Below, piece after piece: positions 41,511 through 58,641 of a stretch of DNA of 64,000 bases; the stretch's first letter is position 1, and the number at the start of each line of letters is the position of its first letter. Source of the stretch: Roseibacillus sp. (GTDB lineage: Bacteria; Verrucomicrobiota; Verrucomicrobiia; Verrucomicrobiales; Akkermansiaceae); assembly GCA_002686085.1 (NCBI GenBank), contig NZAC01000049.1:62001-126000 (forward strand). Direction: 5' to 3'. Under the pieces are notes generated by a model. The model was given only the letters and a program-made list of their open reading frames with translations, searched no databases and was not told where the DNA came from. The translations under genes were made by a program, and so were the position numbers.

Positions 41511-44500
41511 ATGAGTAAGCGTGTTTTCCATCACCCAGAAGCGCCTTCCGATGATTCGGGAGTTGCTTCTTGGCGTAGTGTGGGAGAGCTGGAGAGTACG
41601 CCCTCTTTCAGGGCACATGTTGAGCGTGAGTTTCCCGAGGGGTCCGGCCATCTGAGCGAAGAAGATCAGAAGGCCACGAGGAGAAGTTTTATGAAGCTGA
41701 TGGGCGCATCCTCAGCTTTGAGTGGGCTCACCCTTGTTTCATGCCGTCGGCCCGAATCCTACATTGTCCCCTACAAGAAGGCTCCTGAGTGGGTGATTCC
41801 CGGCAAGCCGTTGTATTACGCGTCAACCCGTCCTCGAGCAGAAGGATCGGTCCCGCTGGTGGTCACAACGTATGAGGGGCGTCCGACCACCCTTGCCCCA
41901 AACGGTGAACACAATGATGGGTGCGGTGCAGACGCGCTCACTCATGCCTCGGTGCTCAACCTTTATGATCCAAAGCGATCAAGGAATTTCCTCCGGAAAG
42001 GCAAAAAGTCCTCGCAGAGGGAATTCGAGCAGGTTTTGGGCTCTCTTGCTCGTGAAGGTGCCAAGTTGGCGGTCCTTGTCGGCGAGGATGACAGCCCTAC
42101 CCGAAATCGCTTGAAAGCGGAGCTTGAACAAGCCTACCCGGGATCCAAATTTTACAGCTATGAGGCCTTGTGTGGAGAAGCGAGGCGGTCGGTCCAAGAC
42201 CAAGTATTCGGAAAGGGGACTCGCACATCAGTAGATTTTTCAAAGGCTGATCGAATTCTTTCCCTCGACTGCGATTTCCTTGGTCTTGACGCGATCGGAA
42301 GTGCCTCTGATTTCTCCAGAAAAAGGCAGGGGGGTGGTGAAGATTACAGAGAGGATATCGCGGCGGACGCCATGAACCGACTTTACATGATCGAGTCCGC
42401 TTTCAGCCTAACAGGAGGTATGGCGGACCACCGGATGCGTGCGAAACCCAGCCAGATGACGGCGGTAGCGGCTCAAGTAGCGAGTGAGCTTGGAGTTCAG
42501 GTGACGGGCTACGAGTCTGGAACACTTTCAAGCGAGGAAAAGGCGAAGTTGCTGGGAAGTGCAGAAAATTTTGACTCATGGATCAGAGAGTGCGTTGCAG
42601 ATTTGAAGGCGCATCAGGGCAAGGCAGTTGTTCTCGCCGGTAGCAGACACAGTGAAGAGCTTCAGCGGATCGTCATCGCCATAAACAACCAAATCGGGTC
42701 TTACGGGGGACCCATGGTCGTCTACGAAACAGGCCGTGCCGAATATGGGACTATCGAGGATTTTGAGGCGGACGTTGATGAGGAGACATCCGTAGTTCTT
42801 TTGGGACCGGCTAATCCGCTCTTTGATCGTCCTGGTGAGCGTTTCGCGAGGGTGCTGAAAAAGGCCAAGGTGAGTATTCATCTGGGCGTGAGAACCGACG
42901 CTACCGCATTGGGATGTGACTGGCATATTCCTGCAGCCCACTACCTTGAGAGCTGGGGTGATACCAGAACGGCCAGTGGAACATACTCCTTGATCCAGCC
43001 CATGATCCTGCCTCTCTATGGAGGGTTTTCAGAACTTGAGGTTCTCTCGCAGCTACTGAGTTGGAGAAAATTTGACTGGGACAGTCTGGAAGCCGATGAT
43101 TCAGAGGATCCGGCCGTGCCTCCCACTCTGATTGCTGGGGAGGGAATGGGCGGGGAACCATCGCCAGCCCTCGCTGAGGTGAGGAAGACCTTTTCCCTTC
43201 CAGAAAATGCCAACGATGATGGCGACGTTGCATGGAAAGAAGCTCTTAAGAACGGATATCTCCAGAGTAGCTCTTACCAGACCGTTGATGCAGACAACGC
43301 CAAGGATCCTGCACCTAGCGTAAGCAGGCCTGCCTCCAAGGGTATCGAAATCAACTTTCTCCCAGATGCCTCGGTCTGGGATGGTCGCTATATCGACAAC
43401 GGCTGGCTTCAAGAGGCTCCGGATCCCATTTCGAAGCTCTCGTGGGACAACGCTGCTTTGGTGTCTCCGAAAACTGCCAAGGAGCTTGGCGTCTACGAAT
43501 CGGTTGAGCAGCTTGAGCCAGAAACCGATATTCCCGTCCTCGGTAAGGTGAAAAACGCTCCTCAGCCTTCTATCGGAGAGGGCAAGGGGGCGAGGGCGCC
43601 GATGGTTCTCATCAAGACTCAGTCTGGACGAATGGAGGTTCCCGTTTTGGTTGCCTTCGGTCATGCAGATGACTGTATCTCTGTTGCTTTGGGCTATGGT
43701 CAGGGTGCTTCAGATGGTCGGGATGGGGTTCGGGTTGCCCGCGATGATGACCCTCTGGCCCCAGTGAGTGCGGTAGGACTAAACACAGGATTTAATGCAA
43801 ACCAGTTGAGGGGAGACGCGTCGTTCAATATCGAGGCGGCTTCGGTCACCAAGCTTCAGGAACGATATCCTGTCGCGCTCGTTCAGGAGCATAATGCGAT
43901 GAACGGGCGAGCCCTTGCCCGGGAGATTTCCACTAACGATGTGGAGCATCATGGCCACAAGGTGTCCTTCGAGGAACAGGTCGCCAAGGTTCGGGAGCAG
44001 GGTCCGGTCGACTCCCACGCACCTGAGAATATTTCACTCTACAAACGTCGTGGATCCACGACGTGGGAAAGCGATAAAGACAAACAGGACGATCTCATTA
44101 GTGATAAGATTCACCAGTGGGGTATGACTATTGATCTCAATACCTGTGTGGGATGCAACGCCTGCCTGATTGCTTGTCAGGCTGAAAACAATATTCCAAT
44201 CGTCGGTAAAGAGCAGGTGGCCATGGGTCGGGAAATGCACTGGGTGCGAATGGATCGCTATTATGCGGCTCCCATGACGGAGATGGATGAAAAAACCCAC
44301 AAGAAGGTTCCGACTCCTGACTGGGTTCAGCAGAACCCCGAGATGATCCCTCAACCGGTGTCCTGCATGCAGTGCGAGAATGCCCCATGTGAGACCGTCT
44401 GTCCGGTAAACGCCACAGTGCACAGTGAGGAGGGTCTTAATACGATGGCCTACAACCGGTGTATCGGAACCCGCTATTGCGCGAACAACTGTCCCTATAA

Positions 44501-45071
44501 GGCGAGGCGGTTTAATTATTTCGACTACAACAAGCGGAACCCTGTCATAGCTAACAATCTCTACAAGGGACCGTTCGGTGAGAAGCAAGTTGGAGAAGCT
44601 CCTCATCTGCAGCGTAATCCGAATGTGTCGGTCCGGATGCGGGGAGTGATGGAAAAGTGCACCTACTGTGTGCAGCGGCTTGAGAGTGCCAAGATCAAGC
44701 AGAAGCAGATTGGCCGGATGAAAACCCTGCGAGCAGGGCAAAATTCGACCAACGTGAAAATCAAACCGGAGGACCTGAGGGTGAAGGCGGACTCGATCAA
44801 GATGGCTTGCCAAGATGCTTGCGAGGCGAATTCGGTAAGTTTTGGAAACCTCTTGGACAAGGAAGATGCGCAAGTCTGGCGGGCCAAATACAAGGGAGAA
44901 AAGAAAACTAAAAGTGGAGCGCTTGAGCTCATCCACAACCCAAGGAACTACGATGTGCTGCAGTATATCGGAACGGCTCCAAGGACCAGTTATCTTGCTC
45001 GTGTGAAGAATCCAAATCCTGCTATGCCCGATGCGGTTTATCGCGGCCTGGCAACAATTAACACCGGCTGA
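41511..45071 (+). CDS. actB: Alternative complex III subunit ActB (molybdopterin-like/iron-sulfur)
   Basis: An 1186-residue periplasmic subunit. The N-terminal twin-arginine-like motif RRSFMKLMGASSALSGLTLVSC ends in a Cys that could be lipidated. Residues about 60-850 form a molybdopterin-oxidoreductase-like region (ActB is known to lack the cofactor). From about 870 comes a NrfC/PsrB-like domain with four Cys clusters: CVGCNACLIAC (from Cys 879), CMQCENAPCETVC, CIGTRYCANNC and the later CTYC...C group. These should bind three [4Fe-4S] and one [3Fe-4S] clusters, as in characterised ACIII. It begins 3 bp after actA. Confidence 0.95.
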   Translation: MSKRVFHHPEAPSDDSGVASWRSVGELESTPSFRAHVEREFPEGSGHLSEEDQKATRRSFMKLMGASSALSGLTLVSCRRPESYIVPYKKAPEWVIPGKPLYYASTRPRAEGSVPLVVTTYEGRPTTLAPNGEHNDGCGADALTHASVLNLYDPKRSRNFLRKGKKSSQREFEQVLGSLAREGAKLAVLVGEDDSPTRNRLKAELEQAYPGSKFYSYEALCGEARRSVQDQVFGKGTRTSVDFSKADRILSLDCDFLGLDAIGSASDFSRKRQGGGEDYREDIAADAMNRLYMIESAFSLTGGMADHRMRAKPSQMTAVAAQVASELGVQVTGYESGTLSSEEKAKLLGSAENFDSWIRECVADLKAHQGKAVVLAGSRHSEELQRIVIAINNQIGSYGGPMVVYETGRAEYGTIEDFEADVDEETSVVLLGPANPLFDRPGERFARVLKKAKVSIHLGVRTDATALGCDWHIPAAHYLESWGDTRTASGTYSLIQPMILPLYGGFSELEVLSQLLSWRKFDWDSLEADDSEDPAVPPTLIAGEGMGGEPSPALAEVRKTFSLPENANDDGDVAWKEALKNGYLQSSSYQTVDADNAKDPAPSVSRPASKGIEINFLPDASVWDGRYIDNGWLQEAPDPISKLSWDNAALVSPKTAKELGVYESVEQLEPETDIPVLGKVKNAPQPSIGEGKGARAPMVLIKTQSGRMEVPVLVAFGHADDCISVALGYGQGASDGRDGVRVARDDDPLAPVSAVGLNTGFNANQLRGDASFNIEAASVTKLQERYPVALVQEHNAMNGRALAREISTNDVEHHGHKVSFEEQVAKVREQGPVDSHAPENISLYKRRGSTTWESDKDKQDDLISDKIHQWGMTIDLNTCVGCNACLIACQAENNIPIVGKEQVAMGREMHWVRMDRYYAAPMTEMDEKTHKKVPTPDWVQQNPEMIPQPVSCMQCENAPCETVCPVNATVHSEEGLNTMAYNRCIGTRYCANNCPYKARRFNYFDYNKRNPVIANNLYKGPFGEKQVGEAPHLQRNPNVSVRMRGVMEKCTYCVQRLESAKIKQKQIGRMKTLRAGQNSTNVKIKPEDLRVKADSIKMACQDACEANSVSFGNLLDKEDAQVWRAKYKGEKKTKSGALELIHNPRNYDVLQYIGTAPRTSYLARVKNPNPAMPDAVYRGLATINTG

Positions 45072-45093: not shown

Positions 45094-46587
45094 ATGGCAG
45101 ACACCGCCACAAAGACCACGAGTGAGACGACCGCACCAAGGGAGGTGAAGATCCCGGTGTTGGAGCGCGAGACGCTCGTGCTTAACAAGCGGTCCTACCA
45201 CTGGATCACCGAGCGGGTGTGTGGAGTGATCGAAAATAAGCAGCCGGCCTTTTGGTGGCAGTTATTCATTCCTTGTGTTATCATGGCTGCTATTGGGGTC
45301 GGTGGTGGACTCATTTATCTCGTCAGTACCGGAGTAGGGGTCTGGGGAAACACCAACCGCGTGATGTGGGGTTGGCCCATTGTGAATTTCGTCTTCTGGA
45401 TCGGGATCGGTCATGCCGGCACCCTGATCTCCGCAATCCTTTTCCTTACCCGACAGAATTGGAGGACCTCGATCAACCGGGCTGCAGAGGCGATGACGAT
45501 TTTTGCGGTCGTCTGTGCAGGTATTTTTCCGGCTTTCCACGTCGGACGAGTGTGGATGGCGTGGTATCTCGCTCCGATTCCAAATGCGAACGCGATCTGG
45601 CAAAACTTCAAGTCCCCGCTGCTCTGGGACGTCTTCGCGGTTTCGACATATTTCACGGTTTCTTTGATCTTTTGGTTTCTGGGGATGGTTCCGGATCTGG
45701 CCACAATCAGAGATCGTTGTAAGAGAGGCCTGAAGAAGTTCCTCTACGGTTTATTCTCCTTAGGGTGGAGGGGAAGTAACCGCCACTGGAGTCACTACGA
45801 GATGACCTATCTCCTTCTCGCGGCTCTTTCGACGCCCCTTGTCCTTTCGGTTCACTCGGTGGTGAGTTTTGACTTTGCCACTTCGGTGGTGCCAGGATGG
45901 CACACAACGATTTTTCCTCCTTATTTCGTGGCAGGAGCTATTTTTGGAGGTTTTGCGATGGTGTTGACGATCATGATTCCCGCCAGGTTCATCTATGGGC
46001 TGGGGGACATGATCACGATGAAGCACATCGACAACATGGCGAAGATCATTCTGCTGACCGGGACGATCGTGGGCTACGCCTACCTGATGGAGCTCTTCGT
46101 AGCCTTCTACTCCGGGGCCACCTACGAAATGGCTGCCTTTACCTACCGAATCACCGGTCCTTACTGGTGGGCGTATGTAGCAATGATGAGCTGCAACGTA
46201 TTGTCTCCTCAACTTTTCTGGTTCCGGTGGTGCCGGGAAAACCTCTGGGTCGTGATGGGAGTATGTATGGCGGTAAACGCCGGGATGTGGTTCGAGCGCT
46301 TCGTCATCATCGTGACAACGCTGGCCCGTGACTTCATGCCCGCAAACTGGAAGTATTACAATCCGAGCTGGGTAGACATCATTCTTTTCCTCGGAACGAT
46401 CGGACTGTTTACTTCGCTCTTCCTCCTCTTCCTCAGGTTTTTACCCTGCATCAATATTGCTGAGGTGAAGTGGGCCAAAAAGGAGAGTGATGTGCTTTAT
46501 GACGACAAACAGGCACATCCGGATGAAGGAACGGTAGTGGAAGCTGCCTACCAGCAGGAAGTTGAGAAAGGAACCGCTGAAATCTGA
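45094..46587 (+). CDS. actC: Alternative complex III subunit ActC (NrfD-like quinol-site subunit)
   Basis: A 497-residue integral membrane protein of the NrfD/PsrC family with about ten TM helices from residue 55 to 460. Typical segments are [90 protein letters not shown] and [21 protein letters not shown]. In ACIII, ActC forms the main quinol-binding site next to ActB. The 3' end overlaps the start of actD by one base. Confidence 0.95.
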
Positions 46588-47144
46588 TGAGTAGTTCTGT
46601 CAAACGCGTCTACGGCTATCTCGCTGAGTTCGAAAGTGCCTCCGCCCTTTATAAGGCAGCGGAAAAAGTGCGTGATGCCGGGTTCCGTAAATGGGACTGC
46701 TATACACCGTATCCAGTCCATGGTCTGGACGACGCGATGGGCATTAAGAGATCGATCCTGCCCTATTTTGTCTTCTTCGGAGGGCTCACCGGTCTTACAA
46801 CAGCCTTTATCCTTTCCTATGTGACTCAGGTGGGGATTTATCCCACTGTAGTACAAGGAAAGCCGGCCAATATTTTCACGGTTCCCGCATTTTTCCCGAT
46901 CATGTTTGAGCTTACGGTGCTTTTTTCGGGATTCACCACGCTCTTTGGTTTTCTGGGACTGACTCAGCTACCCCGCTGGAATCATCCTATATTCGCGAGT
47001 CGTCAGATTCATCGCGCAACTGATGACGGATACTTTATTGAGATAGAGGCCCGGGATCCAAAGTTCTCCGCGGAGGGGACACGGGGGTTTCTTGATGAAA
47101 TTGGGGGAGGAAATATTGAACTGGTGGAGGACGACGGAACCTAG
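46587..47144 (+). CDS. actD: Alternative complex III subunit ActD (DUF3341)
   Basis: A 185-residue membrane protein. It starts with a small soluble domain (VYGYLAEFESASALYKAAEKVRDAGF, CYTPYPVHGLDDAMG), then two TM helices (about 58-82 and 105-128), and ends with a soluble region (DDGYFIEIEARDPKFSAEGTRGFLDEIGGGNIELVED). This is the DUF3341 arrangement; ActD is a small structural subunit of ACIII. It is translationally coupled to actC by a one-base overlap. Confidence 0.93.
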   Translation: MSSSVKRVYGYLAEFESASALYKAAEKVRDAGFRKWDCYTPYPVHGLDDAMGIKRSILPYFVFFGGLTGLTTAFILSYVTQVGIYPTVVQGKPANIFTVPAFFPIMFELTVLFSGFTTLFGFLGLTQLPRWNHPIFASRQIHRATDDGYFIEIEARDPKFSAEGTRGFLDEIGGGNIELVEDDGT

Positions 47145-47153
47145 GCTGTAACC

Positions 47154-47852
47154 ATGAAGTATTTCTTTCTTGCTCTTGCTGGGTTGATCACCCTCACGGT
47201 GGGTGTGTTCGGGCTGCGTGGTCAGAAGACCGTCAAAACTCCCATTGAGATTTTTCCGGATATGGATCGCATGGATTATGTGAAAAGTCAGAAGCCAAGC
47301 GACTTTTTTCACGATGGACAGGGAGCGCGGCTGCCAGTGCCGGGGACAGTCCCCCACTCCAGTGATGACGGGGTATTTCCCGTTGAGTTTGGAGAGGGAA
47401 GAACGGGTCATTACTACACGGGGGCCATCAATGACTACTTTGCGAGCGGACTCCCACTTGAGGAGCTTGGACTAGTCGGTGACGAAGCGTCGGAAGACAT
47501 GCAGGCGTTGTTAAGGCGCGGTCAGGAACGCTATGCGGTCTTCTGCGCGATCTGTCATGGGGGTTCGGGCGACGGAAACGGCACGATCAGCAATTATATG
47601 GCGGCAAAGATCGCGAACCTCCATGAGCCTCGATTTGCCAGTGGGGCGTATCCTGATGGAAAGCTGTATCACGTGATCACTTATGGACAGGGTTTGATGA
47701 GCGGATACGGGGCAAGCATTCCGGTGCGGGATCGGTGGGCCATCGTGGCCTACGTCAGGGCTTTGCAGGATGCTAAGAAAGCGCCGGCCTCGCCGGCGAC
47801 GGCCTCGGTTTCATCAGAAAATAAGGAAGAGGCAGGAGGGCCAAGCAACTAA
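47154..47852 (+). CDS. actE: Alternative complex III subunit ActE, monoheme cytochrome c
   Basis: A 232-residue protein with an N-terminal membrane anchor or signal (about 2-22) and one heme c motif, CAICHGGSGDGNG. The preceding DMDRMDYVKSQKPSDFF and LPVPGTVPHSS match ActE-type cytochromes, and the axial Met probably lies in LMSGYGASIP. ActE is the electron exit cytochrome of ACIII. It begins 9 bp after actD. The Ala/Ser-rich C-terminus (PASPATASVSSENKEEAGGPSN) is low complexity. Confidence 0.93.
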   Translation: MKYFFLALAGLITLTVGVFGLRGQKTVKTPIEIFPDMDRMDYVKSQKPSDFFHDGQGARLPVPGTVPHSSDDGVFPVEFGEGRTGHYYTGAINDYFASGLPLEELGLVGDEASEDMQALLRRGQERYAVFCAICHGGSGDGNGTISNYMAAKIANLHEPRFASGAYPDGKLYHVITYGQGLMSGYGASIPVRDRWAIVAYVRALQDAKKAPASPATASVSSENKEEAGGPSN

Positions 47853-47859
47853 ACTCGTC

Positions 47860-49206
47860 ATGGCACATCATCTTGTTACATCCGCAGACATCCCAGAGGA
47901 GGGCGAAAGGCTGGATGCTGGGAGGCTGAAGAAAATCAGAACGATCTGCCTGGCCGTAGCTGTAGGAGGTGGGCTCTTAAGCGCACCTGCTCTGTTTGGA
48001 CTGTTCGGACAGGGCGTTCAGGGTTCATTCAGCTTCTCGTGGCTCTATGGGTTCTTCTTTTTCGCGACCCTTGCGATGGGAGGTTGTTTCTGGACCTTGC
48101 TTCACAATGTGTCCAACTCGGGATGGGGCGTCTCCGTTCGGAGGGTTATGGAAAATGTGGGGTTTGTCTTTCCTTGGATGTTTATTCCGATGCTTCCTTT
48201 GCTCTTGCCTGAGGTTCAGAAGTTTCTCTTCGAATGGATGCCAAAGCACCGAGAGGCAGCAGAATATGCAGCTCGATACGGCGAGTCCGCCAAATATGGA
48301 CTACACCACGGACCAAAAACAGATCACCTCCTCTATGTTAAGTATTGGTATCTGAATCTCGATTTTTGGTATGTTCGGATGGTCGCCTATTTCCCGCTAC
48401 TTGGGTTTACAATATACTTTCTTCGGAAGCTATCTGTTGACCAGGACAGTGATCCTAATCCAGGGACAAGCCGTCTCAAACGGGCACGGTGGCATTCTTG
48501 CTGGGGGGTGCCTGTGTTCGCTGTGGTTCTAACGTTCCTCGCGATCGACGTCGTCAAGACACTCGACTATAAATGGTTTTCTACCATGTGGGGAGTCTAT
48601 GTCTTTGCAGGAAGCGCCCTGAACGCAATGGCAGTTATCATTCTCATAACTATTGCGCTGCGGCGGATGGGGTATCTCAAAAACGTCGTCGGTCCCGAGC
48701 ATGACCACCTCATGGGGAAGCTTGTGTTCGCCTTCACAGTGTTCTGGGCTTATATCTCCTTCGACCAGTATTTCCTGTATTGGTATGCTAATATCACGGA
48801 GGAGACCCGCTACTTCATTCTTCGCAATACCGCGGGATGGAATTATGTCAGTGTTGTCTTAGTATTCGGTCACTTCGTCGCTCCATTTCTCCTGCTCATC
48901 AGACAAGATCTCAAACGTCGGAATGGCTATATGATCGTGATCGCCTGCTACCTGCTGTTCATGCACATGATTGATCTTTATCATATGATAATGCCGGAAC
49001 GTGGACCTTCGGTAACGAAAGTCCTCCACCCTGGCAACCCTGACAGCTGGTCTCTTTGGCTCAATATGTCGGGTGTGGGTGACGTCGTGGCATTTATGAC
49101 AGTGGGTTGTTTTTTCGTCTATATTCTCCTTCGTAACCTTGGGTCTGCGGCTCTCTACCCGCACCGAGATCCACGTATTCTAGAATCTGCGAACGTTCAT
49201 AACTGA
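47860..49206 (+). CDS. actF: Alternative complex III subunit ActF (NrfD-like)
   Basis: A 448-residue integral membrane protein with about ten TM helices, a second NrfD-like subunit. ATG 47860 (MAHHLVTSADIPEEGERL) is chosen because it starts 7 bp after the actE stop; the open frame continues upstream into actE but is not family-like. Segments such as RVMENVGFVFPWMFIPMLPLLL, YLNLDFWYVRMVAYFPLLGFTIY and MHMIDLYHMIMPE are typical of ActF. It completes actABCDEF; its stop overlaps the next cytochrome start (TGATG). Confidence 0.93.
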   Translation: MAHHLVTSADIPEEGERLDAGRLKKIRTICLAVAVGGGLLSAPALFGLFGQGVQGSFSFSWLYGFFFFATLAMGGCFWTLLHNVSNSGWGVSVRRVMENVGFVFPWMFIPMLPLLLPEVQKFLFEWMPKHREAAEYAARYGESAKYGLHHGPKTDHLLYVKYWYLNLDFWYVRMVAYFPLLGFTIYFLRKLSVDQDSDPNPGTSRLKRARWHSCWGVPVFAVVLTFLAIDVVKTLDYKWFSTMWGVYVFAGSALNAMAVIILITIALRRMGYLKNVVGPEHDHLMGKLVFAFTVFWAYISFDQYFLYWYANITEETRYFILRNTAGWNYVSVVLVFGHFVAPFLLLIRQDLKRRNGYMIVIACYLLFMHMIDLYHMIMPERGPSVTKVLHPGNPDSWSLWLNMSGVGDVVAFMTVGCFFVYILLRNLGSAALYPHRDPRILESANVHN

Positions 49207-50036
49207 TGGAATCTCAGCCGCAAAACCGTCCTGGTTCTTCGGAATCTCCTCAAAAAGGGGATGTGAATAACGGCCTTAAGCGCTTCTCGACTTTCTGGAT
49301 CGGATGTATTCTCTTCGTGGCCTTTGGATTAGCCAGTCTGGTGCTGGGAATTGGATTCAACAAGCCAGCCGTCAACAACATCGATAAGGTGAATGCGAAA
49401 CGGAGAGGAATGATCAAGAGGGAAGTCGATAAAGCCCATGCTGGAGCGCGCGAAAATGCGCTTCTGAGCTTCGAGCGGGTCGGTTCTCACTTTCTCAATA
49501 CCGCGCCGGCGCCTGACGAGAAGCCAGAATTTGTCTTGCCCGGTTCTGCGACGCAAAAGAGAAAAGCGTCCGGCGGATCCGGGATTGTAGTTCCTGCCGA
49601 CTTCCCGAAGGTTGATCCGGACGCTCCGGTGGATGTAGCGGTAATGGAGAGGGGAAAGGCGACATTCGCCATATGCTCAGCTTGTCATGGCCTTGAGGGA
49701 GAGGGGATGTATCACATCAACAAGACAGGTCCTCCTTTAGCCAATTCAGAGTGGGTCACCGGCCCGGTTGCTAATTTGATCGCCATTCAATTTCGTGGGC
49801 TGAGTGGGCCAATTGAGGTAAACGGCGAGAAATATACTCCTGTGGCACCAATGGCGCCTCTGCCTTTGGACAACGATTCTATCGCTGCAGTTCTGACCTA
49901 CATCAGGAACAGTTTTGGTAATAAGGCATCCCCGGTCACGCCGGAGCAGGTAGAAGCTATGAGGGGGGAGCTCGGTAAGCCGATGTTGAGCCCCGCAGAT
50001 CTCATCCCTCCAACTGTGGCGGCTGGTTCAAATTAA
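49206..50036 (+). CDS. Membrane-anchored monoheme cytochrome c, first paralogue
   Basis: A 276-residue protein with one N-terminal TM helix (about 26-50), a flexible linker and a C-terminal cytochrome c domain with CSACHGLEGEGMYHINKTGP. The region after the heme, NSEWVTGPVANLIAIQFRGLSGPIEVNGEKY and LTYIRNSFG, closely parallels the cytochrome at 52303-53070. It overlaps actF by one base and precedes the CcoN-like gene by 14 bp, so it probably links ACIII to what follows. Not part of the standard six-subunit ACIII. Confidence 0.85.
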   Translation: MESQPQNRPGSSESPQKGDVNNGLKRFSTFWIGCILFVAFGLASLVLGIGFNKPAVNNIDKVNAKRRGMIKREVDKAHAGARENALLSFERVGSHFLNTAPAPDEKPEFVLPGSATQKRKASGGSGIVVPADFPKVDPDAPVDVAVMERGKATFAICSACHGLEGEGMYHINKTGPPLANSEWVTGPVANLIAIQFRGLSGPIEVNGEKYTPVAPMAPLPLDNDSIAAVLTYIRNSFGNKASPVTPEQVEAMRGELGKPMLSPADLIPPTVAAGSN

Positions 50037-50050
50037 GATCACGATTTTCC

Positions 50051-51547
50051 ATGACCTCCGAGAGCAATACCCGGACACCAGATCAGAATGATCTAAAGCT
50101 ACGGGCAAGTATTGACCGCTCCCTGCGCCAGCCCGTGATGTTCTTTTTTGCGAGCGGGGCGGTTTGGCTGGCTGTTGCAATTATTCTTGGTTTCATTGCG
50201 TCCTACAAGAGTCACAGCTCCGACTTTCTCTCCGGGATCGAGTTTTTGACCTACGGGCGAGCATATCCTGCACATATCAATCTTCTATTTTACGGGTGGG
50301 GGTGTCAGGCCGCTTTCGGACTGATCGTATGGCTTTTAGCGAGGCTGTCCCGCAGTGAGTGCCGAGCCACTGGAATTATCCTTACCGCCGGTCATCTTTG
50401 GAATTTCGGCGTCATGGCAGGAACGCTGGGCATTCTTTGCGGCTTCGGATCCGGAAAGCCACTCATGGAGTTTCCGCCGGCAATCTGGCCGGTCCTCCTT
50501 CTGTCTTACGTCTTTATCACGGTATGGTCATTCATTCAGGTCCGCTGTAGTTATGGAGGTAAAACCTATGTGGGGCAGTGGTACCTTCTCGCCGCGGTAT
50601 TCTGGTTTCCGTGGGTGTATCTCACAGGACACCTGTTTGTGTTTGTTTTCAATGGTCATCCCGTGATGGCTGCAGGGATTAACGCCTGGTACAAATATGC
50701 GCTCATTCTTCTGTTCTTCACGCCAGTTGCGCTGGGGACGGCTTACTACCTTGTTCCGAAAATTACAGGTCGCCCCATCTACAGTTACTCTCTGGCTCTC
50801 TACGGGTTCTGGGCGCTGGCGGTGATTGGACCGTGGGCAGGAATGCAGAAGCTTGCAGGGGCGCCACTCCCACAGTTCATGCCCTATGTCGGAGCAACCG
50901 CGACTAGCCTGATCCTCATTCCTGGAATTGCGGTGGGCGTCAATCTCCTCATGACACTGCGCGGGCATCAGGCCCACGTTGTGGCCAGTCCGTCCTTGCG
51001 GTTTACGATTGCAGGAGTAGTTGGCTTCCTTCTGCTAGGATTCACGGGAATGTTCCTGAGCACTCCGGCGGCCCTGAAGATGACTCAGTTTGCCCTTACG
51101 GGCTATGGGTTTGAGATTCTTGCCGTCTGTGGATTTTTCAGCATGTGTGCGTTTGGAGGCATCTATTTCATTGTCCCGCGGATCACCCGGCGTGAATGGC
51201 TGTCCCGTCGCTTCATTGGATGGCACTTCTGGTTGACGACTTATGGAGTTCTGACGGTAGTTGTCTGCTCCATCATGGGCGGTCTGTTCCAAGGTGCTGC
51301 GCAGGAAGCTTATAGCAGTTCGTGGAGCGATGCTGCTTCTCGGAGCTATGCTTACAATGTCGGGACTACCGTTGCCTGGGGTTTTATCGCTGTCGGTAGT
51401 TTTTTCTTCCTGATTCACCTTCTTCTCATGTGGGCTAGACTGGGGAGACGGAGCCAGCATCCGACCCTTCTTGGGGGAAGCCATAGTGAACAGTCACCCC
51501 ATGGTCCCGACCATGAGGTAGAGGAACTCCAAACCGTGGAAGCCTGA
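50051..51547 (+). CDS. CcoN-like oxidase subunit I lacking the catalytic histidine motifs
   Basis: A 498-residue protein with about 12 TM helices and the overall layout of cbb3 subunit I (CcoN). Alignable segments are YPAHINLLFYGWGCQAAFG, YYLVPKITGRPIYSYSLALYGFWAL and YFIVPRITRREW. By eye, His 75 (low-spin heme ligand in helix II) remains, but the CuB His of WYGHN reads W213-Y-K-Y216, the HH pair reads around M265-Q-K267, and the GHVH ligands for the high-spin and low-spin hemes read G351-Y-G-F354. It should therefore not reduce oxygen. Paired with the CcoO-like gene 4 bp downstream, it may be an electron-transfer or scaffolding subunit between ACIII and the real oxidase. Confidence 0.8.
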   Translation: MTSESNTRTPDQNDLKLRASIDRSLRQPVMFFFASGAVWLAVAIILGFIASYKSHSSDFLSGIEFLTYGRAYPAHINLLFYGWGCQAAFGLIVWLLARLSRSECRATGIILTAGHLWNFGVMAGTLGILCGFGSGKPLMEFPPAIWPVLLLSYVFITVWSFIQVRCSYGGKTYVGQWYLLAAVFWFPWVYLTGHLFVFVFNGHPVMAAGINAWYKYALILLFFTPVALGTAYYLVPKITGRPIYSYSLALYGFWALAVIGPWAGMQKLAGAPLPQFMPYVGATATSLILIPGIAVGVNLLMTLRGHQAHVVASPSLRFTIAGVVGFLLLGFTGMFLSTPAALKMTQFALTGYGFEILAVCGFFSMCAFGGIYFIVPRITRREWLSRRFIGWHFWLTTYGVLTVVVCSIMGGLFQGAAQEAYSSSWSDAASRSYAYNVGTTVAWGFIAVGSFFFLIHLLLMWARLGRRSQHPTLLGGSHSEQSPHGPDHEVEELQTVEA

Positions 51548-51551
51548 ACTG

Positions 51552-52283
51552 ATGACATTCAAATCCTTCATTACGGCGTTGGGGTTGAGCTTTGGAATCC
51601 CCTGGCTGTTGATCATCCTCATTCCCTTCGGGAAAATGCGAGATCTGGAGCCTGTCTATTTCGAAACAGAGAATGATGGGAAGGACGAGGTTTACGTCCC
51701 TCGCCGCTCGGGGCTTATAACCACTGGTTCCTCGGTGTATGGCTCCAATGGTTGTTATATCTGTCATACACAGCTCATCAGGGCTGGGTATGCCGGGTCA
51801 GAGCTTGGCCGCGCGGATTGGGCTGGTTTTCAGGTCAAGGATGAGAACGGAGTGAGCGTGAACACCGCCCGTGAAACCACTCCTTTCGACTACGTCGACG
51901 AGCCGTTCGCGCACATCGGCCTCATGCGGATCGGTCCGGATCTCACAAATGTCGCTGGAAGGATCCAGAAATACCTCAAGGAGCCACTGACAAAGGCGAA
52001 ATCTCCTGAGAGCTGGCTCTATCTACATCTTTTCAATTCTTCGTTGAAGACAAAGACTCTGAACAACTCCTTTGCGTGTCCGCCGCAGCCTCATTTTTTC
52101 AAGGAACAGCCGGTTCACGGGCAGGGAAGCCCTCATGCTGTTCCAAGCTTGAGCAAGGAGGGGAGAGAGGTTCTCCCGACTCCAAAAGCGAAGGCCCTCG
52201 TCAGTTATCTGCTATCTTTGAGAAAAGACGATGCGGTACCCTATTCCCTGAATTATAGTCGCAATAAGAAGAAGGCGGATTAA
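51552..52283 (+). CDS. CcoO-like monoheme cytochrome c
   Basis: A 243-residue protein with one N-terminal TM helix (about 7-28) and one heme c motif in YGSNGCYICHTQLIRAGYAG, as in CcoO of cbb3 oxidases. LMRIGPDLTNVAGRIQ and a C-terminal KAKALVSYLLSLR also fit; the axial Met candidate is in the LMRIGPD region. It is the natural partner of the CcoN-like protein encoded 4 bp upstream. No CcoP with two hemes follows; a monoheme cytochrome does. Confidence 0.85.
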   Translation: MTFKSFITALGLSFGIPWLLIILIPFGKMRDLEPVYFETENDGKDEVYVPRRSGLITTGSSVYGSNGCYICHTQLIRAGYAGSELGRADWAGFQVKDENGVSVNTARETTPFDYVDEPFAHIGLMRIGPDLTNVAGRIQKYLKEPLTKAKSPESWLYLHLFNSSLKTKTLNNSFACPPQPHFFKEQPVHGQGSPHAVPSLSKEGREVLPTPKAKALVSYLLSLRKDDAVPYSLNYSRNKKKAD

Positions 52284-52302: not shown

Positions 52303-53070
52303 ATGGCGAAATCGCAGCATACGAACAAGATCGATCGACCTGATCTCGAAGACTCGACCAACGTGGTTGAGAAACACGAGAAGCTGTTGGAAATCAGTGC
52401 CTCACAGGCCAGAGAAAATCAGATATCGGAGACCGGAATGGAGCCTGTCTCTCTCTGGGTCTTCCTCGCAAGCGCGATCGTTCTGCTAATTGGGGGTGGA
52501 GTTCTCGGAGCGGGCGGAAAACTCTTTAGTTATAATCCTCATCCAGAGGGCTACACGCGCCCAGATTTCGCCAGTGACGCCGATACGGGGCCAACGATCG
52601 GCCCGATTGTGGAAGCCCTCGCAAAACGGGGAAAAAATATTTATGCCAAGTGCAGTGGTTGTCACGGGTCGACTGGAAGCGGGGATGGAAATCAATACCC
52701 ACCCCTTGCCGGATCGGAGTGGGTGACCGGGAATACCGCGCGGCTAGCCCAGATTATCCTGAACGGCCTCAGTGGGCCCATCGATGTTGCCGGCAAGACC
52801 TACAATGGGAACATGCCGGCGCAAGCCCCCCTCACAGCGGCAGAACTTGCAGCCGTCATGACCTACATCCGGAATGAATTCAACGATGTGGGTGATGTAG
52901 TCAGCGTCGAGCAGGCGGCCGGCGCAATCAAGGTCTATGAGAGTCGCCCCCAGGGCGCAATTACGGTGAAGGAACTGGATGCGGACCACGATCAAATGCT
53001 CGAAGGAGAAGTCGTGGATCCTTCTACGAGCGTGAACTTCGAGACGCTCCAACCCGCAGCGGCTGAATAG
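52303..53070 (+). CDS. Membrane-anchored monoheme cytochrome c, second paralogue
   Basis: A 255-residue protein with a TM helix at about 48-68 and a cytochrome c domain starting CSGCHGSTGSGDGNQYPPL. GSEWVTGNTARLAQIILNGLSGPIDVAGKTY and LAAVMTYIRNEFNDVGDVVSVEQA parallel the cytochrome at 49206-50036. The likely heme axial Met is in YNGNMPAQAPL. It lies 24 bp before ctaD, so it may be the direct donor to the CuA site of the oxidase or take the place of CcoP beside the CcoN/CcoO-like pair. Confidence 0.85.
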   Translation: MAKSQHTNKIDRPDLEDSTNVVEKHEKLLEISASQARENQISETGMEPVSLWVFLASAIVLLIGGGVLGAGGKLFSYNPHPEGYTRPDFASDADTGPTIGPIVEALAKRGKNIYAKCSGCHGSTGSGDGNQYPPLAGSEWVTGNTARLAQIILNGLSGPIDVAGKTYNGNMPAQAPLTAAELAAVMTYIRNEFNDVGDVVSVEQAAGAIKVYESRPQGAITVKELDADHDQMLEGEVVDPSTSVNFETLQPAAAE

Positions 53071-53094: not shown

Positions 53095-54981
53095 ATGAGC
53101 GCAGAAGCGGTAGCAACAGATCATGGGCACGATCATGATGATCATCATCACGATCTTCCCTTCTACAAAAAGTATATCTGGTCGACAGACCACAAGGTGA
53201 TCGGGATTCAATATGCCATCACGGCATTACTCTTCCTCGCCTTTGGCTTCTTCCTGATGATGGTGATGCGGTGGAGCATCGCATATCCAGAGGAGCCACT
53301 CCCAGGATACCTCAGTTGGATTTTCAGTGATGAATGGAAGGCTCGGTGGCTTCAGGATGGTCGAGTGACAGGTGAGACTTACAATATGTTCGGTGCCATG
53401 CACGGTACGATCATGGTTTTCCTTGGAATCGTGCCTCTCGGATTTGCCGCCTTTGGAAATTATATCACTCCGCTGCAGATTGGGACCATCGATATGGCAT
53501 TTCCGAAGCTCAACATGATGAGCTACTGGCTCTACCTTGCTGGAGGCCTTACCATGTGTGCCAGCTTTTTCATGGAATCAGGCGCCGCGAAATCCGGGTG
53601 GACGAATTATGCCCCGCTCGCGAACTTTGCCGACGGTCAGATCGTTAATCAATTTCTTGCAGGCCAGACGCAATGGCTCCTGGGAATGGTACTTCTGATC
53701 ACGTCGTCTCTTCTTGGTGCCGTGAACTTCCTCACCACTCTCATCAATCTCCGAGCGAAGGGAATGACATGGATGCGAATGCCCTTTTTCTGCTGGGCGA
53801 TGCTTGTTACGGGGTTCCTTCTGCTGCTCGCCTTTCCTCCTCTTGAGGTGGCAGCAATCATGCAGTTGATGGACCGGACAGTCGGTTCCAGTTTCTTCAC
53901 GCCAAGTGGTCTTTATACTTCTACAGCCGGGGTGATCGAAGCCTCGGGAGGGGGTAGTCCTCTTCTCTATCAGCACCTGTTCTGGTTCCTCGGACATCCA
54001 GAAGTGTATGTCCTTCTGCTGCCCGCCATTGCTTGTGTGGCTGAAATCATTCCAGTGAACACCAGAAAGCCCCTCTGGGGTTACAAGCCCATGGTGTGGT
54101 CGATAGTCATTCTGGGTTTTCTCAGCTTCATCGTCTGGGCTCACCACATGTATCTAACGGGGATGGGACCGGTAATATCCACGTGGTTCCAAACCACGAC
54201 CGTGTTGATTTCTGTGCCCTCAGTCATCCTCCTGACTTCGTTAATTGTTTCGCTGTGGGGTGGCTCGATCCGGTTTAACATGCCCATGCTCTGGGCGGCG
54301 GCCTTTCTCCCGATGTTTGGGATAGGGGGGCTGACTGGCCTGCCCTTAGCATTCAACCTGGTTGATCTCCATTTGCACGACACCTACTATGTGATTGGGC
54401 ACTTCCACTACGTGGTTGCACCAGGAATTCTCTTCGGACTCTTCGCAGGTCTCTATCACTGGTTCCCGAAGGTTACCGGGAGGCACATGAATACCTTCCT
54501 CGGACACCTTCATTTCTGGCCCTCTCTGGTCTTTATGAATGTGCTCTTTTTCCCAATGCTCATCCAAGGGATGGCTGGATTCCACCGGCGATGGTATAAC
54601 GGGGGGGACGCTTATCTCTCCAAGGCAGCTGACAGTGAGAATGTCTTCGGGAATACCGTGGCAGAATGGATTCATCTAAACCCCGTCATGAGTTTCGGGG
54701 CATTCATGCTGGCGATTGCCCAAATCCCGTTCTGCATCAACTTCTTCCTGAGCATTTTCGCAGGGAAAAAAATCAAAAATGACAACCCGTATGATGCAAC
54801 AACCTTGGAATGGGCCACGCCTACGCCTCCGCCGCACGGGAACTTCACTTTTGATGTCGCAGCCTACCGAGGCCCTTACGAATACAGCCGAGATGATCAT
54901 GAGGGTGATTTCTTCCCTCAGTGGGAGGAGCCGAAAAGGAACAAGCCAGCCAAAGAACCCAAGACCTCGCCTGTTTCCTGA
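53095..54981 (+). CDS. ctaD: Cytochrome c oxidase subunit I (aa3/caa3 type)
   Basis: A 628-residue catalytic subunit with 12 or more TM helices. Ligands are in place: MFGAMHGTIMVF (low-spin heme), HPEVYVLLLP with the cross-linked His-Tyr, AHHMYLTGM (CuB His pair), and HDTYYVIGHFHYVVAPG (high-spin and low-spin heme His). It reduces oxygen to water and pumps protons. The N-terminus is unusual: a His/Asp-rich run of 12 residues (DHGHDHDDHHHD) before the first helix, which may bind metal. The gene order ctaD, subunit III, subunit IV, small proteins, subunit II is uncommon. Confidence 0.95.
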   Translation: MSAEAVATDHGHDHDDHHHDLPFYKKYIWSTDHKVIGIQYAITALLFLAFGFFLMMVMRWSIAYPEEPLPGYLSWIFSDEWKARWLQDGRVTGETYNMFGAMHGTIMVFLGIVPLGFAAFGNYITPLQIGTIDMAFPKLNMMSYWLYLAGGLTMCASFFMESGAAKSGWTNYAPLANFADGQIVNQFLAGQTQWLLGMVLLITSSLLGAVNFLTTLINLRAKGMTWMRMPFFCWAMLVTGFLLLLAFPPLEVAAIMQLMDRTVGSSFFTPSGLYTSTAGVIEASGGGSPLLYQHLFWFLGHPEVYVLLLPAIACVAEIIPVNTRKPLWGYKPMVWSIVILGFLSFIVWAHHMYLTGMGPVISTWFQTTTVLISVPSVILLTSLIVSLWGGSIRFNMPMLWAAAFLPMFGIGGLTGLPLAFNLVDLHLHDTYYVIGHFHYVVAPGILFGLFAGLYHWFPKVTGRHMNTFLGHLHFWPSLVFMNVLFFPMLIQGMAGFHRRWYNGGDAYLSKAADSENVFGNTVAEWIHLNPVMSFGAFMLAIAQIPFCINFFLSIFAGKKIKNDNPYDATTLEWATPTPPPHGNFTFDVAAYRGPYEYSRDDHEGDFFPQWEEPKRNKPAKEPKTSPVS

Positions 54982-55002: not shown

Positions 55003-56889
55003 ATGGAGATTCCATACACAGTCACTGCCCGTAAAGACACCGGTCTTTTCAACTCAAAGGTTGGAATCTGGCTCTTTCTGGCGTCCGAGGTGATGCTATT
55101 TGGCGGACTGTTCTCAGGGTATGTATTTCTGAGGATCTATGCAGACTATCCTTGGCCAGAGCGGGCTCTTCCGATCGTGCCTGGATTGATCAATACGTTT
55201 GTGCTGATCGGGTCTTCTGTGACAGTAGTCTTCGCGTGGGCTGCCCTCAAAATGAGGGAATGGAGAAAATTCCAAATTTACATGGGGATAACGATCGCTT
55301 GTGCGGCAATATTCATGGTCCTCAAGGGAATTGAGTATAAGGCAAAACTTGAGCACCAGGCGGTTCGGATGGATGATTTTGCCATCATTGAGGGTCACGC
55401 CCACTACGCCGTAGTTGGCGATGACGGCAAGATCTCTCATGCGGATACCAAAACGAAGGCTAAGAAACTGAGCGATTCGGGTGCAAAGCCGTTCAAGGCC
55501 AATGCTATTCTCTTCAAGCCGCAGACTATTGATTTCTCAGTGGCAAGGGCGCACCAGCCCTGGGTCGAAGCAGTTCTGGAGCAGGCAGCAAAGAGAAAGT
55601 CCAAGCTGGTTACAGCTGAAGACCTCTTCCTTTACGGGAGCATCAGAGATTATGCTGGAACGGAACAGGAGCCTCTTTCCAGCAAGGGCCGCACCAATTC
55701 AGAGGCCGAACTAGTCGCGAAGTATGCGAACGCGGAGGAAAAGGCAGGGCACACCTTTGGGGAGCGATCTCTCTACATCCCGGCGGGTACTGAACTAAGC
55801 TACGATCTCGTGAAACAGGCTCGTGAAGTTTATGTTTCGGGGCGTTCCCACAATGCAGTCGCGCGAACGGCGATCCTGAAAGCGAACTGGAAAAAAGTAA
55901 AAGCAGCTCGTCCTGAGGACAAATACTGGGAGCAGGCCCCTGACGCGAGGATTGACTCGGCAACCCAGCTGGATGAGCAGTTTGACTCCGAGGGAAACTG
56001 CATTTCAGGCAGCAAAGTTGTCTCTGTGGTTTCTACCCTGTCTTTTCAGATGAGTCCCCCACAGCCCATCGTCATTGACAGAGGATGGGTCAAGCGTCCG
56101 GTGAAGGCGCAGGAGGGAAAAGCAGAGCTGAGGGATGATACCTCCTTCAATGCCGGAAGCGCCGGGGATTCGGCTCCGGGACTCCTCAGTAGTCCGCTGA
56201 TCCTCGCGGTGGATGCGATCGACTTTCGCTGGATGGCTCAGAAAGCTGAGGAGGCGGGTAAGGAGCCTTTGGAAGTGATCGAGAAAAGTTGGATTTTCTC
56301 GGAGGAAAACAAGCATGCGAAATACTACAAAAGGATCTGGAAAAACCATAAGGCTCGAATTGCCGAACTGGAGAAAGAGCTTCTCGAGGGGTATGGCAGG
56401 GACAAGGAAGGAAACGCGAAGCGGGTTCCAACGGAGACGGATCGCTATCGTATCACTTGGCAGGATCTTGTGCATTACGCGAGGGTCGATCAGCACGAAG
56501 GGCGCCCTCCTAAGCCGAGCGATAAAGAGTATGCCGATCTTCGCCCGAAGTTCTGGGACGGTTTCGCCGGACCGAATCATAAAGATGAGGAAATTCATGA
56601 ACTGCATGCGTTTCCTGAGTTGGAGATCCCCCACCAGAAAGTGTCATTGCAGTCGATGTTTACGCCGAAGTGGAACACCTACTATGCCGTATATTTCACG
56701 ATTACCGGCTTACATGGCCTTCACGTGATTGGTGGTGCTATTGTTCTAGGGTATTACCTCTTTTTCAGTAAGGGGTTGTACCGTCGTAATCCTGAATGGC
56801 TTGCCAACAGGGTAGAAGTCGGCGGCCTTTTCTGGCACTTCGTTGATCTGGTCTGGATCTTCCTGTTCCCAATCCTTTACCTCATGTAA
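55003..56889 (+). CDS. ctaE: Cytochrome c oxidase subunit III with a ~435-residue insertion
   Basis: A 628-residue protein, against about 200-290 normally. Residues 1-117 hold three helices (GIWLFLASEVMLFGGLFSGYV; LPIVPGLINTFVLIGSSVTVV; IYMGITIACAAIFMVLKGIEY). Residues from about 556 hold the last two (YFTITGLHGLHVIGGAIVLGYY; GGLFWHFVDLVWIFLFPILYL). All conserved subunit III motifs are present. Between them is a soluble, charged segment (about 118-552) with no heme or metal motif that I recognise and a helical stretch near 420-450. The reading frame is continuous, so this is not a frameshift artefact. In the standard topology the loop would face the periplasm; that is inferred. Confidence 0.92.
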   Translation: MEIPYTVTARKDTGLFNSKVGIWLFLASEVMLFGGLFSGYVFLRIYADYPWPERALPIVPGLINTFVLIGSSVTVVFAWAALKMREWRKFQIYMGITIACAAIFMVLKGIEYKAKLEHQAVRMDDFAIIEGHAHYAVVGDDGKISHADTKTKAKKLSDSGAKPFKANAILFKPQTIDFSVARAHQPWVEAVLEQAAKRKSKLVTAEDLFLYGSIRDYAGTEQEPLSSKGRTNSEAELVAKYANAEEKAGHTFGERSLYIPAGTELSYDLVKQAREVYVSGRSHNAVARTAILKANWKKVKAARPEDKYWEQAPDARIDSATQLDEQFDSEGNCISGSKVVSVVSTLSFQMSPPQPIVIDRGWVKRPVKAQEGKAELRDDTSFNAGSAGDSAPGLLSSPLILAVDAIDFRWMAQKAEEAGKEPLEVIEKSWIFSEENKHAKYYKRIWKNHKARIAELEKELLEGYGRDKEGNAKRVPTETDRYRITWQDLVHYARVDQHEGRPPKPSDKEYADLRPKFWDGFAGPNHKDEEIHELHAFPELEIPHQKVSLQSMFTPKWNTYYAVYFTITGLHGLHVIGGAIVLGYYLFFSKGLYRRNPEWLANRVEVGGLFWHFVDLVWIFLFPILYLM

Positions 56890-56903: not shown

Positions 56904-57281
56904 ATGGCTGACACACCTGAAGCAATCCAGAAGGCAAAGAAGCAGTATATACTGATAGGCCTCATCCTGTTCGTTTTCACAGTGGTGACGGTTGCGGTGG
57001 CAACTGTGCCCTGGCTGGATTTCGGCGATCATGGCTTTGACTCAAAGGATGCAGTCATTGGACTTCTGATTGCTACATTCAAAGCCAGTCTCGTGGCCTC
57101 GATCTTCATGCACCTCAACCATGAGAGAAAGACGATCTACCTTGTTCTTTTGATTAGTGCGGTAATGGGCATCGTTTTGTTTTTTTTGACGGGTTGGGCC
57201 TTCGTTGATCCGATTGAGTATGGCAATACCGTCGAGGGGGATCGATTTTATAACCCCGAGAAACCAATTACCTCAGACTAA
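56904..57281 (+). CDS. ctaF: Cytochrome c oxidase subunit IV (prokaryotic COX4)
   Basis: A 125-residue protein with three TM helices (about 15-37, 50-72, 75-98). The sequence AVIGLLIATFKASLVASIFMHLNHERKTIYLVLL is the signature of prokaryotic subunit IV. It stabilises the oxidase. It begins 14 bp after the subunit III gene. The end is a short tail (YGNTVEGDRFYNPEKP) of unknown relevance. Confidence 0.9.
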   Translation: MADTPEAIQKAKKQYILIGLILFVFTVVTVAVATVPWLDFGDHGFDSKDAVIGLLIATFKASLVASIFMHLNHERKTIYLVLLISAVMGIVLFFLTGWAFVDPIEYGNTVEGDRFYNPEKPITSD

Positions 57282-57744: not shown

Positions 57745-58641
57745 ATGCCAATTCTAGCCAAGACCATCGTTGAATTCCTAGGTATTCCGGAAAATTTCTC
57801 GGAACATGGAGGAAGTGTCGATCACCTGATCGATCTTGTGCACTGGTTCATGCTCGCCCTTTTCGTAGGTTGGACGACTTTTTTCCTCTTTGCCTGCTGG
57901 AGATTCTGGCGCAAAAGAAATCCAAAGGCTTCATATCATGGGGTGCAGAATCACGTCACTACTCACCTCGAGGTCGGAGTAGCGATTTTTGAGGCTGTTC
58001 TCCTGCTTGGTTTTGCATTTCCGCTCTGGGCTGAAAGGACCGATCGGTTCGAGGACATTCAGGTGCAGGACCCGGCCCGGGTCAGGGTGATTGGATATCA
58101 GTTCGGTTGGAACTATCACTATCCTGGATTAGACGGGAAATTCGGAAGGATTGACCGTCACCTGGTGGAAAGAGCTGGGGATCCCTGTATCGATCCGGAA
58201 GACCCAAACGGTTGGGATGATTTTGTTTCGCCAATTCTCAAGCTCCCAGTATTGGAGCCGGCGATCCTCCAAATCACATCAACTGATGTGATTCATGGTT
58301 ACGCCATTGTGCCCATGCGGATCCAGCAGGATGCCATTCCCGGAACCGACATTCCCATGTGGTTTCGCCCCTTGAAAAAACTGGAAACAAGCGTTGTCTG
58401 TGCCCAGCTGTGCGGTGAGGGTCATGGAGACATGGTCGGCGTGATGGAGGTTATTGGTAAGGGGGCCTACAACACATGGTTGGCGGAACAGAGTAACGCA
58501 GCCTACGCACGGAACTCCAAGAAGGCAGAGGAAGATTCCTCTTCAGTTGGGGAAGACGACGCCTCTGACGAGGCCGCAGGATCCTCTCTGGGCGCGGGAG
58601 AGGAGGCCGACGAGTCGGCTGGTGGTGAAGGGGCCGAGTGA
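57745..58641 (+). CDS. ctaC: Cytochrome c oxidase subunit II with CuA site
   Basis: A 298-residue protein with two TM helices (about 28-52 and 70-92) and a periplasmic cupredoxin domain. The CuA ligands are visible: His in DVIHGYAI, then CAQLCGEGHGDMVG with two Cys, His and Met. VIGYQFGWNYHYPG is the conserved aromatic motif. There is no fused cytochrome c domain, so it depends on separate cytochromes such as those encoded upstream. The C-terminal about 45 residues are acidic and low complexity (Glu/Asp/Ser/Gly/Ala). It is the last gene of the cluster; 58642-58776 shows only a weak CCCC/GGGG hairpin. Confidence 0.95.
   Translation: MPILAKTIVEFLGIPENFSEHGGSVDHLIDLVHWFMLALFVGWTTFFLFACWRFWRKRNPKASYHGVQNHVTTHLEVGVAIFEAVLLLGFAFPLWAERTDRFEDIQVQDPARVRVIGYQFGWNYHYPGLDGKFGRIDRHLVERAGDPCIDPEDPNGWDDFVSPILKLPVLEPAILQITSTDVIHGYAIVPMRIQQDAIPGTDIPMWFRPLKKLETSVVCAQLCGEGHGDMVGVMEVIGKGAYNTWLAEQSNAAYARNSKKAEEDSSSVGEDDASDEAAGSSLGAGEEADESAGGEGAE

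Follow-up and report, generated by a model that had tools for sequence, protein, structure and literature searches.

A CcoN-like subunit without its catalytic metal ligands in the alternative complex III gene clusters of the Verrucomicrobiae

Why does a gene cluster for alternative complex III (ACIII) encode, beside an intact aa3-type oxidase, a second oxidase core that has lost nearly all of its metal ligands? We analyzed a 64-kb stretch of DNA (the window), whose closest named relatives are Roseibacillus sp. MAGs at 93% identity, which places it in the Akkermansiaceae (Verrucomicrobiales). ActA-F and oxidase genes share one cluster in the window, as expected for the genes of an ACIII-oxidase supercomplex. 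A CcoN-like gene (N) and a CcoO-like gene (O) lie in the middle, flanked upstream by actABCDEF and cytX1 and downstream by cytX2 and coxA-C-D-B. The coordinates of the open reading frames agree with an earlier reading made from the letters alone (the sequence-only reading), which had O starting 4 bp 3' of N and the pair between actABCDEF and an aa3 oxidase. The genes are:

40791..41507, + strand: ActA, penta-heme c subunit of ACIII; 5 CXXCH motifs; syntenic first gene of the cluster
41511..45071, + strand: ActB, Mo-bisMGD-like/FeS subunit of ACIII; open reading frame, syntenic
45094..46587, + strand: ActC, NrfD-like membrane subunit of ACIII; syntenic; query of our ActC census
46587..47144, + strand: ActD; Pfam PF11821 (ActD), E 2e-59
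47154..47852, + strand: ActE, mono-heme cytochrome c; 1 CXXCH motif, syntenic
47860..49206, + strand: ActF, NrfD-like membrane subunit; open reading frame, syntenic; start placed at the ATG of MAHHLVTS
49206..50036, + strand: cytX1, membrane-anchored mono-heme cytochrome c between ActF and N; PF00034, E 8e-9
50051..51547, + strand: N, CcoN-like subunit I without catalytic ligands, 498 aa; COX1 (PF00115, E 1.6e-44), ligand table, AF2/Foldseek
51552..52283, + strand: O, CcoO-like mono-heme cytochrome c; weak FixO/CcoO match, heme motif C68YIC71H72, Cys176
52303..53070, + strand: cytX2, membrane-anchored mono-heme cytochrome c; PF00034, E 7e-14; best NCBIfam match ccoP, weak; syntenic after O
53095..54981, + strand: CoxA, A-type oxidase subunit I with all metal ligands present; TIGR02891, 553 bits; motifs GHPEVY, AHH and GHFHY
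55003..56889, + strand: CoxC, subunit III with a large insertion, 628 aa; PF00510 in two stretches
56904..57281, + strand: CoxD-like, subunit IV; open reading frame, syntenic
57745..58641, + strand: CoxB, CuA subunit II (CAQLCGEGHGDM); PF00116, E 1e-8

N and coxA are the only two COX1-family genes in the window's genome, and we found no bd oxidase there. CoxA is the oxidase of this genome. As a side observation, CoxC has 628 aa here, 540-610 aa in other sampled Akkermansiaceae and about 263 aa in methanotrophs; in the window, the COX3 matches fall in two stretches around an insertion of roughly 350-400 residues.

The best named relatives of N are subunit I of cbb3 oxidases, but its score against TIGR00780 (cbb3 subunit I) is 109.8 bits, far below the equivalog cut-off of 583. 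We aligned N to CcoN of P. stutzeri (3mk7), which also provides the ligand numbering. One of the six metal ligands is retained: the low-spin-heme ligand H60, which is H75 in N (50273-50275). The CuB ligand H207 is replaced by Y216 (50696-50698), the CuB ligands H257 and H258 by Q266 and K267 (50846-50851), the heme b3 ligand H345 by F354 (51110-51112), and the heme b ligand H347 by I356 (51116-51118). The cross-link Tyr251 is replaced by a glycine. The alignment bears out the sequence-only reading, including its numbering: W213-Y-K-Y216, M265-Q-K267 and G351-Y-G-F354 stand in place of the catalytic motifs, and His 75 is the sole remaining heme ligand. Misalignment does not account for the losses, as an alignment-free check for the HH and [GAS]HxH motifs agrees with the ligand table. 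Judging from these residues, the CuB site, the ligation of heme b3 and the bis-His heme b cannot form in N with the usual ligands.

The overall structure is another matter. An AF2 model of N (42 sequences) has a pLDDT of 84.9 and a pTM of 0.87, and its top PDB match in Foldseek is CcoN (3mk7_A, TM 0.85/0.90, rmsd 2.8 Å). Together with the PF00115 match, this identifies the 12-TM fold of COX1/CcoN. Many structural residues of CcoN from 3mk7 are kept as well (W213, K237, P376 and H392). N has retained the CcoN fold and lost the active site. We also considered a NorB/NorC pair, but NorB ranks below CcoN in the fold search (TM 0.77 vs. 0.85) and the His ligands are absent.

The same positions are replaced in relatives. 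Across 42 homologues from the Akkermansiaceae, residue 216 is mostly S (H in 3), residue 266 is Q in 40 and H in 2, residue 354 is always F, Y, L, M or V, and residue 356 is always I, V, L or M. Because the replaced positions recur across these homologues, chance or sequencing error is ruled out. Other residues are conserved in the same set: H75 in 40/42, H115 in 42/42, K or R at 215 in 39/42, and D or E at 355 in 40/42. The sequence-only reading would have been undermined if histidines near 115, 194 or 203 had restored the CuB or heme sites, and none of them does. H194 and H203 both vary among homologues; H115 is conserved in the Akkermansiaceae only and aligns to a Trp of TM III in CcoN. Separately, N from the Akkermansiaceae has a conserved His-bearing C-terminal tail (H470, H478 and H484, within residues 469-488, 51455-51516), which is missing from most other lineages and where the AF2 confidence is low.

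O has changed too. Its CXXCH motif is present at all loci, and C68, C71 and H72 are found in 80/80 aligned homologues. In CcoO/NorC-type cytochromes, the Met of an SxMP motif is the axial heme ligand. This Met, which lines up with the conserved one of CcoO (3mk7_B), is present in all 13 O proteins that are encoded beside an N with all of its ligands. At its place, O of the window has Cys176 (52077-52079), and so do 75/75 O proteins from the Akkermansiaceae; the five loci without the Cys (L165-L167, L169 and L170) are from more distant Verrucomicrobiales. Profile-profile alignment also sets this Cys on the Met of CcoO, and we found no alternative conserved Met in O from the Akkermansiaceae. In other lineages whose N lacks ligands, O has Met, Ala, His or Arg at this place. 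His/Cys ligation should give heme c a low potential, which makes a relay of electrons via O to the oxidase doubtful in the Akkermansiaceae. The sequence-only reading had suggested that the pair might relay electrons. For N this fails, as the bis-His heme site is absent, and for O it is doubtful in this family, given the change from Met to Cys.

A redox role of another kind is conceivable. The N-O pair of the Akkermansiaceae might be a repurposed redox or sensing module, in which O carries a low-potential His/Cys heme c and N provides either a new site with H75/H115 or a path for ions along buried charges (K/R215, K267 and D/E355). The uniform Cys176, at a position where Met is invariant beside an intact N, and the conservation of H115, H75, Q266, K/R215 and D/E355 argue against plain drift. 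However, this proposal is limited to the Akkermansiaceae: other lineages without the ligands differ in both O and N, and their retention of N would be left unexplained. We view it as unlikely, but as the leading alternative to our own proposal below. A combined role seems unlikely to us as well; here the pair of the Akkermansiaceae would be a scaffold and also a redox-linked module, with a low-potential His/Cys heme c in O and with the old heme pockets of N refilled by conserved charged residues and H75/H115, and this module would gate or sense the flow of electrons (or the movement of ions) between ACIII and aa3.

How widespread is the arrangement? In our sample of the phylum, N was detected in the sampled families of the class Verrucomicrobiae that bear this ACIII. 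The order ActF-(cytochrome)-N-O-cytochrome c is found in 48 fetched ACIII-linked loci, with exceptions that are small upstream rearrangements of act genes, cuts at contig ends, or divergent flanks. Comparing our list of N proteins to the ActC census, N is kept in 65/66 ACIII-bearing genomes of the Verrucomicrobiae, a count that leaves out genus g2, whose ActC is divergent. The sole exception is G008, where N, O, cytX2 and coxA are missing as a block between ActF and CoxC. We found no N in the ACIII clusters that we looked at in the phylum outside this class. Since the N-O order is common within the class and absent from the ACIII clusters that we looked at outside it, N-O would have become part of ACIII a single time, close to the base of the Verrucomicrobiae.

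There are several variations on this layout. Genus g2, which is from the same family and is probably Akkermansia, has a divergent ACIII-like cluster (ActC 42-49% identity) with no N (L180, L181 and L182); in L180 and L182 it lies beside a gene for a protein of 785-822 aa with two heme c motifs. In L189 and L190 (from G191 and G188, family f2), the act operon is split, with ActABCD apart from ActEF-N-O-cytX2-cox, and N-O stays with the ActEF-cox half. Outside of ACIII clusters, we noticed two further types of CcoN with all ligands, unlike canonical fused CcoNO (L075-L079, L084 and L085): one, of 453-461 aa, comes from f24 and from one f57 genome in another class; the other, of 546-618 aa, comes from f5.

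Cox genes directly follow the cluster in families f1, f2 and f4 and in loci L046 and L062, but most clusters from f3 and f5 have no adjoining cox genes. This bears on whether N-O could be an assembly factor for the neighboring aa3 oxidase or for its heme insertion, as was proposed for a ligand-less COX1-like protein of Acetobacter (PMC10715153). By analogy this might explain both the adjoining cox genes and the joint absence of N, O, cytX2 and coxA from G008. It would not explain the many f3 and f5 clusters, and we consider it very unlikely. Similarly, attachment of N-O to aa3 specifically remains only a candidate: apart from those with the window's order and those of the methanotrophs, ACIII-N-O clusters mostly lack adjoining cox genes. 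Nor do adjacent cox genes predict a ligand-less N: N of L046 is intact with cox genes adjacent, and members of f5 and f3 have lost ligands without them.

We compared 49 ACIII-linked N proteins, including the window's. Thirteen are intact (six His and Tyr251) and 36 are stripped, each of the latter without at least three ligands. HH and [GAS]HxH are both present in 13/13 intact proteins, and [GAS]HxH is present in none of the stripped ones. In a tree of N that was computed with the ligand columns excluded, the ACIII-linked proteins group together (SH-aLRT 99) and the ligand state changes four times; a single clade of all stripped proteins is rejected (AU test, p = 0.001). The ActABC tree demands eight changes of ligand state. 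We do not rely on the 8 to 10 losses that the ActABC tree alone would give, as a single loss within f5 is what the trees of N and of O call for. In that family, N strongly rejects the ActABC grouping (AU test, p = 1.6e-57). We also observed that the N and O trees conflict strongly with the ActABC tree for f5 loci L049-L074, which suggests that part of the ACIII operon recombined or was replaced within f5. Overall, these trees point to at least three to four independent events of ligand loss in N. The direction of change is loss, because all of the outgroup CcoN proteins are intact and regain of six ligands is implausible.

The clearest pair is L044 and L045. N of L044 has A, A, V, N, Q and Q at the ligand positions, and it is nested with the intact proteins of L045 and L056. 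The ActABC branches of L044 and L045 are 0.11 each, vs. N branches of 0.52 for L044 and 0.088 for L045. The sequence-only reading had held that relatives in the same context with all ligands would count against it. Such relatives do exist (13/49), but the loss in the window's N stands. Rather, intact relatives in the same cluster imply descent from a genuine ACIII-CcoNO oxidase, with catalysis lost on several occasions.

Two small genomes, G001 and G146, show what the intact protein may do. They are 1.7 and 1.3 Mb and about 98-99% complete, the ACIII-linked N is their sole COX1-family gene, and we found no CydA or bd oxidase in either. All six ligands are confirmed in N of G001 (L056). G146 is a congener, and its N has the same length and a COX1 score within the range of intact proteins. 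If these bacteria respire oxygen, then by gene content the intact N must be their terminal oxidase. With no second oxidase in these two genomes, whose N is intact, it is very likely that ACIII-CcoNO truly worked as an oxidase in the ancestor. More broadly, an A-type oxidase is encoded in 47 of the 50 surveyed genomes, N is intact in all of the other three (G001, G128 and G229), and every surveyed genome with a stripped N has another (A-type) oxidase. This pattern, from small counts that are uncorrected for kinship, fits with catalysis being lost only where it was dispensable.

Could stripped N proteins still reduce O2 or NO via unconventional ligands? We give this hardly any credence. The retained H75 and the invariant H115 of the Akkermansiaceae could be taken as support, but each stripped N is missing at least three of the ligands, no conserved replacement is common to the lineages, and another HCO is always present. 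Some of these proteins have few histidines in total (4 in L064, 5 in L083, and 6 in L044 and in L081).

Another idea is that N is a decaying relic of an oxidase, kept only for translation coupling or the integrity of the transcript. N does evolve faster than ACIII in several stripped pairs, with N/ACIII distance ratios of up to 3.2, and the long branch of L044 is an example. However, all 36 stripped proteins are encoded by full-length open frames, and dN/dS of N in stripped pairs is about 0.03-0.19, within the range of the neighboring act genes (dS is close to saturation in many cases, and we left out the ActF comparisons to L091-L097, which were in a wrong frame). Since the frames are open throughout and dN/dS is well below 1, N is not a pseudogene. 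Constraint on stripped N is relaxed yet present, and N is under purifying selection. Loss of N from only one of the 66 ACIII genomes and the spread of the stripped state over several families also speak against a relic, which we consider quite unlikely.

We propose that the catalytically dead CcoN is probably kept as a structural subunit of ACIII, with aa3 as the oxidase; here we infer the membership of N-O in ACIII, the absence of heme from N, and the electron route. In the ancestor of the Verrucomicrobiae, a C-type CcoNO oxidase would have been inserted behind actF and would have worked as an ACIII-coupled oxygen reductase. In several lineages, N would then have lost the ligands of CuB and of heme b3, as well as one low-spin-heme ligand or both, with the metal sites decaying where another oxidase was at hand. 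The gene would have been retained because its fold had become a fixed structural part of the ACIII assembly: N may hold the membrane helix of O, and probably also ActF and cytX2, in place. Electrons from menaquinol would pass through ActB/ActA and the His/Met cytochromes ActE, cytX1 and cytX2 to CuA and CoxA of aa3.

N is best read as having a structural or docking role, since it is non-oxygen-reducing, kept across the class in the ACIII cluster, and under purifying selection. The docking half of the earlier suggestion of a repurposed docking or relay module thus survives, without the relay. Two findings weigh against a scaffold. The conserved new residues in N (H115, Q266, K/R215 and D/E355) could mean some other active function. 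Also, ACIII exists without N in G008 and in the clusters that were checked elsewhere in the phylum.

The window's pair resembles the CcoNO core of the cbb3 oxidase of P. stutzeri (3mk7) in its fold (TM 0.90), in the order of N and then O, and in the heme c motif of O. Unlike that core, it lacks five of the six ligands and the cross-link Tyr, the axial Met of O is a Cys, and there is no CcoP or CcoQ gene with the pair. Its gene context is like that of the ACIII-aa3/caa3 supercomplexes of F. johnsoniae and R. marinus, with clustered genes for ActA-F and an A-type oxidase, but the window has the additional N-O, cytX1 and cytX2 between ActF and CoxA. An orphan CcoN of Pseudomonas aeruginosa is reportedly treated as a functional subunit isoform. 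Like N, that protein is a CcoN paralogue outside of a standard operon (PMC5697931). Retention of a respiratory subunit after loss of its metal ligands has precedents in Acetobacter, where a ligand-less COX1-like protein is kept next to CtaB and a structural or assembly role was proposed, and in the deranged bc1 of acidophilic Acetobacteraceae (PMC10715153). Those cases involve a COX1-like protein beside ctaB or a subunit of bc1, whereas the protein in the window is a CcoN in ACIII, and here intact and stripped forms occur in the same operon across one class. We found no description of an ACIII-linked, ligand-less CcoN in the open-licence literature.

In verrucomicrobial methanotrophs and Opitutaceae, a "cbb3-type" oxidase adjoining ACIII has been counted among three working oxidases (PMC8498564, PMC6688271, PMC10205796, PMC11102522); PMC8498564 cites Refojo 2010 for it. 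This is the same protein family as N, with the same gene order (PMC8498564, PMC6688271). Contrary to the published view of it as working, the pmoA-bearing genomes in our data have a ligand-less N. The five pmoA-bearing genomes of family f4 have no match to TIGR00780 at 1e-15, their ACIII-linked N, read at four loci (L080-L083), retains one of the six ligands at most, and they contain no other CcoN. For G152, one of the five, the further COX1-family genes that we examined are NorB, B-type and A-type. Several genome papers thus appear to count a stripped-type N as a working high-affinity cbb3 oxidase (we infer the link to the named strains). As a separate observation, the ACIII cluster of another of these pmoA-bearing methanotroph genomes (G072, L178:6843-12533) has a nos cluster inserted between ActF and N, including a protein of 660 aa that matches nos_propeller from Pfam (nitrous oxide reductase). 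A comparable insertion has been published for M. caldifontis IT6.

Across one class, the same operon carries either an intact or a dead oxidase core, and two near-sisters differ in this. The case is unusually clear, and whether ACIII needs the CcoNO fold for something beyond oxygen reduction becomes directly testable. From the change of Met to Cys, we predict that O brings an unusual heme c into a respiratory complex. G001 and G146, with their intact ACIII-CcoNO, seem to possess a minimal quinol-to-oxygen machine. And if the "cbb3" of the methanotrophs is unable to bind metals in the usual way, this affects how their high affinity for oxygen (PMC6688271) is explained.
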